Shown one piece after another: positions 36,026 to 43,806 of a stretch of 57,623 nucleotides of DNA. The notes under the pieces are model-generated. The model saw nothing but the letters and a program-made list of their open reading frames with translations. It was not told the origin of the DNA and did no database searches. The first letter of the stretch is position 1; each line of letters begins with the position of its first letter. A program made the translations under genes and the position numbers. Origin of the DNA: Haliea sp. E1-2-M8 (lineage in GTDB: Bacteria > Pseudomonadota > Gammaproteobacteria > Pseudomonadales > Halieaceae); NCBI RefSeq assembly GCF_030649675.1, contig NZ_JAUTDR010000026.1:1-57623 (forward strand). Direction: 5' to 3'.

Positions 36026-36088
36026 ATGCCCAAGCAAGCGCGAGAATTGAGCGCCATCGAACTGCACAGGCTGTCCGGGCATCTCTGA
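36026..36088 (+). pseudogene. 5' end of a tyrosine integrase gene (fragment 1)
   Basis: Twenty codons reading MPKQARELSAIELHRLSGHL, with AGGAG 7 bases upstream. The start MPKQAxELSAxExxRL is typical of P4-type integrases with an N-terminal arm domain (DUF4102). The sequence leaves the family after RLS. Fragment 2 of the same kind of protein is found on the same strand at 43573, beyond the ATPase operon. Confidence 0.6.
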
Positions 36089-36223
36089 CGCAGCGCCGTC
36101 TCCAGCTTGATTTCCCGCAGCGCAATATTGGCTTTGATCTGGGAAATCCAGGGAAGGCCGAACAGGAAGCCCTCCAGGAAGGCGTCGAAGCTTGCTCGAC
36201 GCGTGTCCATTCGGCAGCCAGAT

Positions 36224-36248
36224 AATGGCCATCTAAAAATGGCCATCT
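36224..36248 (+). repeat. Tandem 11-bp repeat
   Basis: AATGGCCATCT occurs at 36224-36234 and 36238-36248, separated by AAA. Each unit contains the palindrome ATGGCCAT. It lies about 60 bases beyond the atpG stop in non-coding DNA. Confidence 0.6.
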
Positions 36249-36306
36249 GTGTATGGTCACCACCCGTATTCATTCATCCCGCCGATGGAAAACGAGGCTT
36301 ACGGTT

Positions 36307-37200
36307 TCAGATTGATGCTGGCCCCGTCAATGCGTCGAAGCCGGATACGACGTCGAAAAGTTCCGCGTCAATGCCGCTCTGGCGGATCCGGTGAAAACTT
36401 CCGTTGAGGTCTTCCAGCAGGGCGTCGATGTTCTTGTCAGCGCGTTGCATCGCCGCTAGACGGCTTGCATTTTCACTGGCCAGCGACTCAGCGCAGGCCC
36501 TGAACAGAGACACGAACAGATACTCGCGGATCAGCGCCCGCAGAGTCGCGGTATCGTCGCCCATCACCTCGGGCAGGTTCCCAGTCGGCCAGGGTAACTC
36601 GACAAGTTTCTGGCGCCAGGTTTCATCCAGGGGCAGCAATCGCTGCTGAACAGGTTCATAAATCGCACTGGAGGTGGGGCGGTTGTAGAAAAGATGAAGC
36701 TCACCGATTTCCCCCTGGCTTTGGTCAGCCTCGCTCTCGATGAGAATCCGCCCAACCAGTGGAGTGATGGCCTGAACGGAATTCGGCACGGCGTGGCGCC
36801 CGGCCAGCGCCAGGCCCGTATCCGCCAGGCGCGCATGCACGCGCTCGCCGACTGTCCACACCCGGTGTTTGCCGGGCAACTCGGCGAGGGCCTGCAACGC
36901 GAAATCAGCCACCACATCGTTAAAGCGTCCAACCAGACCCTGATCCGAGCCGAACACGACCGCGCCGACGGACCCTTCATCGGGATGTGCTGTGCTTTCC
37001 GTGATCGGCGCCGCCGCATTTTTCCGGAAACAGATGCTCAAGCCCAGTTCCACGCTGCGATAGTAGTGGCTCAGGGCGTGCACCGATTGTTCGTATTGGC
37101 CGATGTTCGAGGCGGCCAGGGCCTTCATCGTACGTACGACGGATTGCAGATCGCCGGCGCTGCCGATCTTGCGGCGCAGGCTGGCCGTGGTGTTGCTCAT
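36307..37200 (-). CDS. atpG: N-ATPase gamma subunit
   Basis: Central rotor stalk of F1 (297 aa). The N-terminal coiled coil is SLRRKIGSAGDLQSVVRTMKALAASNI at residues 7-33. A Rossmann-like middle includes GAVVFGSDQGLVGRFND, the conserved GSDxGLxG element. The C-terminal coiled coil is SLFRACAESLASENASRLAAMQRADKNID. It is diverged from housekeeping gamma, as expected for the N-ATPase family, and is the last gene of the operon. Its ATG overlaps the stop of a 32-codon ORF by 4 bases. Confidence 0.9.
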   Translation of the reverse strand: MSNTTASLRRKIGSAGDLQSVVRTMKALAASNIGQYEQSVHALSHYYRSVELGLSICFRKNAAAPITESTAHPDEGSVGAVVFGSDQGLVGRFNDVVADFALQALAELPGKHRVWTVGERVHARLADTGLALAGRHAVPNSVQAITPLVGRILIESEADQSQGEIGELHLFYNRPTSSAIYEPVQQRLLPLDETWRQKLVELPWPTGNLPEVMGDDTATLRALIREYLFVSLFRACAESLASENASRLAAMQRADKNIDALLEDLNGSFHRIRQSGIDAELFDVVSGFDALTGPASI

Positions 37201-37295
37201 GACTGCTCGGCGGCGCCGTCCACAGCCTTGTCCAGACTCGCTGCCATCGTCTTGTCGATTTCAATGTTGCGGTCGGTGTTGATCTGGATTTGCAT
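37197..37295 (-). CDS. 32-codon ORF in the ATPase operon, HPF/RaiA-like N-terminus
   Basis: Reads MQIQINTDRNIEIDKTMAAS and ends LDKAVDGAAEQS. It has a strong AAAGGAG site 6 bases before the ATG, and its stop overlaps the atpG start (ATGA). The first 11 residues resemble the start of HPF/RaiA-type ribosome hibernation factors (MQIQVNTDxNIEG), but the remaining 70 or more residues of that family are missing. It might be a translational coupler for atpG, a truncated passenger gene, or a real micropeptide. Confidence 0.6.
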   Translation of the reverse strand: MQIQINTDRNIEIDKTMAASLDKAVDGAAEQS

Positions 37296-37332
37296 GGTTT
37301 GCTCCTTTGATTGCGTTGAATTGACGATTGGC

Positions 37333-41319: not shown

Positions 41320-41716
41320 GCCTAAAAGCCTCGAAGCGACGCAGAAATCCCAATTCCAATTTAGCCATGACCGCGCGCACATTTTGCTCTTGCTGGTTCC
41401 GGGTCAGGTACTCCTGCGCCACCGCATCGCGCAGTTGGCCGAGGTCGGCTCCGCCCAGCGCCCGACGCACGGACACCATCACGTCCGGGCCGGTCTTGAC
41501 CAGCACGCCTTCATCCACGGCCAGAAAAACTTCCCCATCGGATTCGGATTCGTAGATCAGGATGCCCGGTACCAGCGCCGCCACGCAATCGAGACGGCGC
41601 GGCAGCAGGCCGAACGCGCCCTCGCGCGTCTCCGCGACGATGCGCGACACGCCGGTTTTCTCGGCGAAGACCTCGAAAGGCAAGAGCACCTTAAAGTTCA
41701 TGTGTGTCTGCGGCAT
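41312..41716 (-). CDS. atpC: N-ATPase epsilon subunit
   Basis: 134 aa. The N-terminal beta sandwich is visible ([46 protein letters not shown]) with the helical tail [27 protein letters not shown]. In housekeeping operons atpC is last; here it follows atpD directly as the second gene, the N-ATPase arrangement. It overlaps the end of atpD by 26 bases. Confidence 0.9.
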
Positions 41717-43139
41717 GCTCGTCCTTCGCCTCGGGTTTCGATTTTTGCTTCACCTCGCCGATCGCCCCGATCATGTAGAGTGCGCTCTCCGGGGTATCCT
41801 TGAATTCATCGCGCAGAATGCGCTCGCAGCCGTCGAGCGAGTCTTCCAGGCTGACCAGCTTGCCTGTGAGGCCGGTGAACTGCTCGGTGGTGAAGAAAGG
41901 CTGGGTGAGAAAACGCTCCAGACGGCGGGCGCGGGCGACCACCTTGCGATCATCCTGCGAAAGCTGCTCCAGGCCCAGCATGGCGATGATGTCCTTGAGT
42001 TCCGCATATTGCGCCAGGGTGCGTCGGATTTCCTGGGCCAAAGCGTAATGGCGGCTGCCGACAACGCCGGGCGTGGCCATCTTGGAACTGGATTGCAGCG
42101 GGTCGATGGCCGGATAGAAACCTTCGCTGGCGCGTTTGCGCGATAGCACGATGGAGGCGGAAAGATGCGAAAAAGTGTGCACCGCCGCCGGATCGGTAAA
42201 ATCGTCCGCCGGCACATACACCGCCTGGATCGAGGTGATGGCGCCGCTATCGGTATTGGCGATGCGCTCTTCCAGTTGCGACAACTCGGTTCCCATGGTC
42301 GGCTGGTAGCCCAGGCGCGACGGCATCTGGCCCATCAGGCCGGACACTTCCATACCAGCCTGGATGAACCGAAAGATGTTGTCGATGAGCAGCAGCACAT
42401 CGCGGCGCTCGTCGTCGCGAAAGTACTCGGCCATGGTCAGCGCGGCATGGCCGACCCGGAAGCGGGCCCCAGGCAGCTCGTTCATCTGGCCGAACACCAT
42501 CACCATGTTGGGCAATACCCCGGCGGCCTTCATCTCGCGATAAAGCTCCTCGCCTTCGCGGCTGCGTTCGCCGATGCCGCAAAACAGGCTGACCCCTTCA
42601 TGCTGGCCGACCATGTTGTGGATCATTTCGGTCAGCAGCACCGTTTTGCCGACGCCGGCCCCGCCGAACAGACCCGCCTTGCCGCCGCGTTCCAGCGGCA
42701 CCAGCACGTCGATGGCCTTGATGCCGGTCTCGAAAACCTCCGACTTGGTCGACCGTCGCGCCAGCGGTGGTGGCGCCCGGTGCACCGAACGCCACTCGAC
42801 ATCGGTCAGGTCCGCTTCGCGGTCGATGACGTTGCCGAACACGTCGAACATGCGCGAGAGCGTGCCCTTGCCGACCGGCGCCTGCAGTGGCCCGCCGCTG
42901 TCTTCTACCGCCATGCCGCGCGCCAAGCCCTGGGTCGGCGTCAGTGCAATTCCGCGCACGTGACGTGCGTCCAGTTGCGCCAGTACTTCGATGACGATCT
43001 TCTTGTCCGGCCCCGTGCGCAGCACCGTGTAGATCGGCGGCAAAGCCGCGTCGAACCGCACATCCACGACACTGCCGCGCACCGAAATGACAGTGCCGAG
43101 CTTGGATAATTTGTTTTCGATTTCGTGGTTCGAATTCAC
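41691..43139 (-). CDS. atpD: N-ATPase beta subunit
   Basis: Catalytic F1 subunit (482 aa). P-loop [15 protein letters not shown] at about 157-171, catalytic glutamate in [15 protein letters not shown] at about 187-201, then [22 protein letters not shown] and [11 protein letters not shown]. The start is GTG 43139 with AGGGGTGA upstream. It is the first gene of the nine-subunit operon D-C-Q-R-B-E-F-A-G. Its promoter must lie in or beyond the IS3 remnant to the right. Confidence 0.95.
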
Positions 43140-43145
43140 CAGTCA

Positions 43146-43408
43146 CCCCTGATTCTGCCTGTGCACAGGGCAGGCGCCTGTAGTATGACTCTGCTTCGGC
43201 CGGGGGGATACACCCAGCCCGGTCGGGACATAGGTGGGGTCCGACACCCACAGCTGGTTCGGTCTGTCGGCCTTGAGCTGCCGGTTGACCCGGTCCAGCG
43301 GGCAGGGAGCCGTTTGATCCGCCAGGGTAGTTCGAGCCACCTTGCCCCGGCGCGCCCCCTCTGCAACTGCAGACGAAGCATCAAGCGCCCAACCGTAAAG
43401 GGGCTCAC
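43146..43408 (-). mobile_element. IS3-family transposase (orfB) remnant
   Basis: Two frames of the minus strand read parts of an IS3-type OrfB: FTVGRLMLRLQLQRG, then ARTTLADQTAPCPLDRVNRQ and LKADRPNQLWVSDPTYVPTG. The last stretch leads into the first catalytic aspartate region (LWVSDFTYV in active enzymes). The rest of the element is missing. It lies only a few bases upstream of atpD and may have brought or replaced the operon promoter. Confidence 0.75.
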
Positions 43409-43572
43409 TTTACAGGTTAGTCAATTTTGGGCGGCATTCAACGCCGGTGCTCACACTTAGCGTGTGTTATAGATTTGCGGAGCCTCTTCAGGCCATAGAC
43501 GTTATATGGGGCTGTTCGAGGAATATCGAAAGAATGTGTGTGCAAGTTACTGAATTATATAGAAAAGAGGCG

Positions 43573-43806
43573 GGAGTGTCTGGCCTGCATATGGTTGTGA
43601 CCCCCACGAGTGCAAAGTGCTGGACTCTACGCACGATGGTGGGCGAACGCCGCCGCGAGATTGGGCTGGGAGGCTTCCCCGAGGTGCCACTGGCGGAAGC
43701 CAGCAACAAGGTCCGGGAGCTTAAGGAACAGGTACGGCAGGGCATTGATCCGGTGGAGCGACGCAAGGCCCACTGCACCAAGCTGGCACAGGCTACCGCG
43801 CGGAGC
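43573..43806 (+). pseudogene. Internal part of a tyrosine integrase gene (fragment 2)
   Basis: Reads GVSGLHMVVTPTSAKCWTLR, then ERRREIGLGGFPEVPLAEA and VRELKEQVRQGIDPVERRKA. This is the arm-binding (DUF4102) domain of P4-type integrases, about residues 25-100 of a 400-aa protein. A shifted remnant (CAEIVAAHSWTF) may continue to about 43860. The catalytic domain is absent. Together with the 20-codon start at 36026 it could be the same gene split by the ATPase operon. Confidence 0.75.

Follow-up and report, generated by a model that had tools for sequence, protein, structure and literature searches.

A complete N-ATPase operon lying between two collinear P4-type tyrosine integrase fragments in Haliea sp. 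E1-2-M8

The question raised by this locus is how a complete N-ATPase operon could have ended up flanked by two pieces of tyrosine integrase. The locus is found on contig NZ_JAUTDR010000026.1 of Haliea sp. E1-2-M8. The whole stretch analysed, 57,623 bp long, is here called the window, and is contig C19 of a genome of 4.84 Mb in 94 contigs (the host genome). N-ATPases are said, following Dibrova and colleagues in 2010, to be alternate F1F0 ATPases encoded by an operon of the order atpDCQRBEFAG. To our knowledge, the argument for their lateral spread rests mostly on gene trees. An initial annotation of the window read the operon as having been inserted into an integrase gene, with an adjacent remnant of an IS3 insertion sequence (IS) as the possible agent, a history that would record directly the way in which N-ATPases are disseminated. 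The features discussed are collected in Table 1.

The two integrase pieces are both on the plus strand. Fragment 1 belongs to a short open reading frame (ORF) at 36026-36088, which translates to MPKQARELSAIELHRLSGHL before its stop codon. The initial annotation was correct in recognising an integrase start here, but not in its extent of 20 codons, as the homology is limited to codons 1-16/17. The match of its first 48 bases to the integrase gene of genome G039 is not approached elsewhere in the window, where the next-best place gives 26/48. The maximum is 30/48 over 2,710,900 positions of 80 named N-ATPase loci (the best 80 of one scan, which together with loci in genomes G002 and G086 make up the comparison set of 82 used below). 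With a 17-position profile, fragment 1 scores 34.6, and no other among the 5,081 start codons of the window reaches 10. Among 189,965 starts in other loci, the best 30 listed all read as integrase starts, one of these being fragment 1 again, from a copy of the window. A chance match was rejected on the basis of these two scans. Fragment 2, previously described as roughly codons 25-100, is a real piece of integrase, and its ORF matches the Pfam domain Arm-DNA-bind_3 with 54.9 bits (cut-off 27). The homology could open at codon 23 (43564) and extend to about 43812.

Relatives were searched for in 120 genomes sampled out of a larger family. In G039, G001, G024 and G047, one full-length protein spans both pieces without overlap, and both also match the full-length integrase of G007. 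The G039 gene shows the same degree of divergence from each, with 39/48 bases (81%) identical in fragment 1 and 188/234 (80%) in fragment 2, and the gap between them corresponds to a loss of 5–9 codons (15–27 bp). Fragment 1 and fragment 2 scores correlate over a set of 26 integrases (Spearman 0.65), the four best for fragment 2 ranking 2, 5, 1 and 4 for fragment 1. The host genome, searched with the G039 protein, contains no second copy of either piece, the next best match being 46% identical. Because the pieces are collinear and non-overlapping, are equally diverged, lack only 5–9 codons between them and have no second copy, one split gene is the best reading: both would derive from a single broken integrase gene, closely related to the intact gene of G039. 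The single-gene origin suggested in the initial annotation is thus supported by the full-length coverage and the equal divergence. An origin from two different integrase subfamilies was rejected, since the same full-length proteins align to both pieces and the scores correlate.

The P4-type tyrosine integrases of G039, G001 and G007 contain Arm-DNA-bind_3, Phage_int_M and Phage_integrase domains. The fragments correspond to codons 1-17 and 26-103 of such a protein, but differ from it in that about 95 of about 430 codons are left and the catalytic domain is gone. Fragment 2, too, ends early, the integrase homology halting at codon ~103. The catalytic Phage_integrase domain is lacking at the locus, and the remainder of the gene beyond this codon was not found in the host genome. 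No integrase activity is therefore expected, and since everything after codon ~103 is lost, the gene was dead debris either at the time of the insertion or later.

Table 1 Features of the N-ATPase locus and its junctions
Feature	Position	Strand	Evidence
Antiporter-like N-terminal debris, MAWIMLALGPVLLVSGADLLVRGAPS and stop	35887..35967	+	Sequence reading, no database match
Integrase fragment 1, codons 1-17 of P4-type tyrosine integrase	36026..36076	+	39/48 bases to G039; profile test
Lrp/AsnC-type (presumed) regulator gene, 3' end, fragment	36090..36195	-	100/106 to host genome C13:15172-15277
atpG (gamma)	36307..37200	-	TIGR03323 427 bits, cut-off 282
atpA (alpha)	37333..38880	-	TIGR03324 920 bits, cut-off 750.5
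atpF (b)	38877..39659	-	TIGR03321 323 bits, cut-off 225
atpE (c), start codon chosen by hand	39663..39944	-	TIGR03322 163 bits, cut-off 131
atpB (a)	39977..40684	-	TIGR03306 375 bits, cut-off 302
atpR, start codon chosen by hand	40674..40991	-	TIGR03165 112.5 bits, cut-off 55.5
atpQ	40984..41382	-	TIGR02230 143 bits, cut-off 46.7
atpC (epsilon)	41312..41716	-	TIGR03166 157.5 bits, cut-off 100
atpD (beta)	41691..43139	-	TIGR03305 890 bits, cut-off 752
IS3 orfB remnant, C-terminal piece	43172..43209	-	89.5% over 38 bases to Variovorax plasmid IS3
IS3 orfB remnant, internal piece	43213..43400	-	75.5% over 188 to Ca. Tenderia plasmid transposase
Integrase fragment 2, codons 26-102/103	43573..43806	+	188/234 bases to G039 integrase; Arm-DNA-bind_3

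Between the fragments lie nine open N-ATPase genes on the minus strand (36307-43139) in the order atpD-C-Q-R-B-E-F-A-G. The complete set given in the initial annotation is confirmed, as all nine subunits score above the cut-offs of curated NCBIfam models named 'alternate F1F0' or associated with these. A longer ORF of atpR matches the Pfam family AtpR, and there is no separate delta gene. The predicted c subunit contains the sequence ESTAIY, which fits the motif ESTxxY, described as Na+-type in PMC6688271. The same gene order is found in at least 65 of the 82 comparison loci. The host genome also has an ordinary F-type beta gene (C1:61899-63263), which scores 814 bits with TIGR01039 (cut-off 463) and 573 bits with the N-type beta model, under its cut-off of 752. 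The window operon is a second ATPase, alongside the standard F-ATPase, and probably acts as an ATP-driven pump for Na+ (as the ESTAIY motif would predict) or H+. The system resembles other N-ATPases, for which PMC6688271 and PMC11738941 cite Dibrova et al. 2010, in its gene order, the presence of atpR and atpQ, the long b subunit, the ESTxxY motif, its position as a second enzyme beside the normal F-type one, and its sporadic distribution. No difference was noticed within the operon; what is special is its landing place between the remains of an integrase.

The junctions are mosaics of short pieces. At the left, fragment 1 is followed by 13 bp, a 106-bp gene tail, 111 bp without clear origin, and then atpG. 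The tail, which we take to come from a regulator of the Lrp/AsnC family, is matched on contig C13 at the 3' end of an open frame of 155 codons. It agrees at 96/106 positions with the copy in G006, while the C13 and G006 gene copies agree with each other at 98/106 (differing at 8/106). Ahead of fragment 1 is the start of another gene, presumably a CaCA cation antiporter, which ends 58 bp before it and has no further match in the host genome at E 1. At the right, upstream of atpD, come the pieces of IS3 orfB, 172 bp without clear origin, and fragment 2. Since there are gene scraps at both edges, namely the Lrp tail on the left and the broken IS3 on the right, no clean IS-bounded entry unit is still readable. 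A plasmid search with 35813-36330 gave no match; matches to 36190-36310 were weak (best E 0.09, some of them IS1182 transposases) and were not used. No tRNA that might serve as an attachment site was found in the window, nor in the 14–15 kb around the integrases of G001 and G007.

The IS3 remnant noted at the right end of the operon is real, its internal piece also matching a Variovorax sequence (77% over 141). About 400 bp are missing between its two pieces as an internal deletion, and neither end of the element was recognised. There is no IS3 at the left end of the operon, which leaves one partial copy only, and no other copy of the remnant was found in the host genome at E 0.01, in a search that scored 40 of its 103 first-look candidates. 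The two junctions share no repeat, having no 11-mer in common between 36060-36310 and 43135-43580. A target-site duplication was likewise not found, with no common 6-mer between 36040-36100 and 43545-43590; a shorter one is possible, and small deletions may have erased one. As the element is internally deleted, and recognisable ends, a partner copy, a target duplication and a shared repeat were not found, the agency of IS3 put forward in the initial annotation is unsupported.

The surroundings were compared with those of related integrases. Positions 7708-21200 of the window are collinear with two congeners (G001:C19 and G007:C5), and in both of these the block is followed by an integrase of the same subfamily. 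The two congeners have the integrase in common and, at least partly, the next gene, with 99% identity over 287 residues, and therefore count as one case. In G001 the intact integrase begins 1.9 kb past the block. In the window, by contrast, fragment 1 begins 14.8 kb past it, after other genes and debris (a Crp-type regulator, LigD, two Ku genes, a GGDEF-EAL gene, a Cu/Zn superoxide dismutase gene and secF), and there is no intact element. The integrase after the block in G001 and G007 indicates that the region accepts integrative elements, and that tandem integrases are possible. Short broken genes are recurrent across 21-44 kb of the window, as seen from the antiporter-like, IS3, integrase and P-type-ATPase-like remains. 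The last of these, which we take to be P-type-ATPase-like, is a relic with frame changes and gaps at 21.2-22.3 kb (21200-22300), exactly where the synteny with G001 and G007 stops.

On the basis of the two fragments, their collinearity and their equal divergence, we retain insertion of the operon into an integrase gene as the simplest reading, and consider that a multi-step insertion into one such gene, within a decaying integrative zone, is the probable course of events. Lateral arrival of the operon would have come first, and illegitimate recombination together with numerous deletions would have followed in this zone. By this course a segment that today measures about 7.5 kb and includes the complete operon would have been placed between codons 16/17 and 23-26, with the loss of 5–9 codons.

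Several observations weigh against this reading. Fragment 1 is short, at 17 codons, and its score with the G024 gene is slightly over that with the G039 gene (64 and 60). Other debris lies within 58 bp upstream of it, and on inspection by eye the DNA that stands upstream of the integrases of G001, G007 and G039 is not seen before fragment 1. The search for an empty site succeeded in finding unbroken integrase genes, in G001, G007, G024 and G039, but not in the same flanks: no genome searched joins both flanks of the window to an unbroken integrase with the operon absent, and the synteny with G001 and G007 ends at 21,200. The secF gene was tried as a syntenic flank and rejected, as none of six congeners shows the downstream order of the window. 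In G001, G003, G005 and G007 a 434-codon gene on the minus strand comes after the lone secF; in G004 other ORFs precede this gene, and in G006 a different gene follows secF. On the right, the CheA-like gene at 48650-51007 had no match at E 1e-120 in 119 other genomes (with up to 8 candidates scored per genome), and this search therefore provided no relative that joins the left and right flanks. The contig itself may be chimeric.

The strongest alternative, which we nevertheless regard as unlikely, is that two tandem integrases of the same subfamily occupied a reused site, with the N-ATPase as cargo of one of them, and that decay left complementary pieces by chance. The host genome has 12 matches to the Arm-domain family (fragment 2 included), the single case of G001 and G007 places an integrase of this subfamily after a block syntenic with the left part of the window, and the slight preference of fragment 1 for the G024 gene would also fit. 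However, both pieces are equally diverged in DNA from one gene, the two pieces, codons 1-17 and 26-103, fit together with almost no gap, and no other integrase of the close group was found in the host genome.

A markedly less probable alternative is that end-joining repair by LigD and Ku pasted foreign and local scraps, together with the operon, into a broken integrase, the Lrp tail being filler. LigD, followed by two Ku genes, is encoded at 25592-30107, forming an end-joining repair cluster close to the debris zone. The closest match to the Lrp tail is the copy in the host genome, and the short pieces do form a mosaic around the operon. Against this, six differences in 106 bp imply that the Lrp copy either is an older one or did not come from this very genome, several elements decaying by ordinary deletion would give a similar picture, and the junctions are too old for a test of microhomology. 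That end-joining more generally fixes foreign operons such as N-ATPases, patching breaks in decaying integrase sites with operons and host filler where LigD and Ku are adjacent, seems to us very improbable.

Transposition by IS3, as a composite or one-ended event carrying the operon into the integrase gene, is equally improbable, for although the orfB remnant stands immediately upstream of atpD and in the same direction, it is internally deleted, lacks recognisable ends, a left-hand partner and a further copy, and the junctions share no 6-mers.

As regards the origin of the operon, TIGR03305 was found above its cut-off in three of 97 genomes searched: the host genome, one congener and one of the same order. 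AtpA and AtpD are 71% and 83% identical to those of the congener (G002), and up to 83% and 89% identical to sequences from loci of other groups. In a tree built jointly from 73 sequences, the operon joins five Verrucomicrobia/Acidobacteria sequences with a support of 0.86, the innermost node having only 0.13. As the operon is nearer to other groups than to the congener, these sequence comparisons suggest that it was likely gained laterally, and separately from that of the congener.

Other N-ATPase loci do not repeat the arrangement. At 1e-5, no ORF in the 82 other loci matched an integrase model, the sole match being fragment 2 of the window; the model was built from 26 proteins, mainly of the P4-type subfamily of the fragments, and other recombinases may escape it. 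The flanks of the 82 loci are unequal: 65 include both ends, and among these an upstream flank of 2 kb or more is found in 58 and a downstream flank of 2 kb or more likewise in 58. A survey of 117 neighbouring proteins from 63 loci (nearest neighbours picked from 235 ORFs) gave metabolic or regulatory families as the commonest, namely PPK2 (5), DUF2254 (4) and Crp-type (4). No integrase or transposase family was among the listed families matched by at least two of these proteins, 25 of 138 families being listed, so that lone transposase matches could stay hidden. In the accessible portions of the literature on lateral transfer of N-ATPases and mobile elements, no report of an N-ATPase within an integrase gene was found.

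Some further observations concern ATPases and their neighbours. The Crp-type regulator at 24585-25409, 11 kb from the operon, has relatives (40-63%) in 6 of the 82 N-ATPase loci, and in G086 the relative adjoins atpG. G005, G008, G017 and G079 (loci L070 and L074-L076) contain a second, divergent type of alternative ATPase just below the N-type cut-off, whose beta subunit is 61-64% identical to that of the window. A relic of at most 139 codons in the host genome (G000:C2:73837-74165, locus L122) corresponds to the alpha subunit of another alternative ATPase. It is 65-72% identical to N-type and second-type alphas, and a Pfam search with one of its frames gave no match. A second alternative ATPase may therefore formerly have existed in this genome.

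Other neighbouring genes also have relatives elsewhere. The superoxide dismutase gene (32584-33426) partially matches its Pfam model and has a relative on C9 (71% over 572 bp). The secF at 34898-35812 is an extra, lone copy, apart from the secDF pair on C2, and six congeners have lone copies (70-73%) in different surroundings. The gene at 43852-44562 has no Pfam match and no relatives in the 7 congeners searched; the host genome has relatives (62-63%) on C34 and C7, one of them with an internal stop.

Given that none of the 82 other loci contains such an integrase, the window is no demonstration of a general route, and the idea of a direct trace of N-ATPase spread does not hold as a general claim; nor did the survey of neighbours list a recurrent integrase or transposase family. 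The locus offers an instructive relic, local in scope, of a kind of event already known, and not a demonstrated route by which N-ATPases spread. It displays the landing place of the operon and not its carrier, and because the carrier is unreadable here, the question of spread is narrowed rather than answered. What a copy of the operon inside an identifiable integrase gene does offer is a physical landing site, and with it a possible empty site to seek in sister strains.

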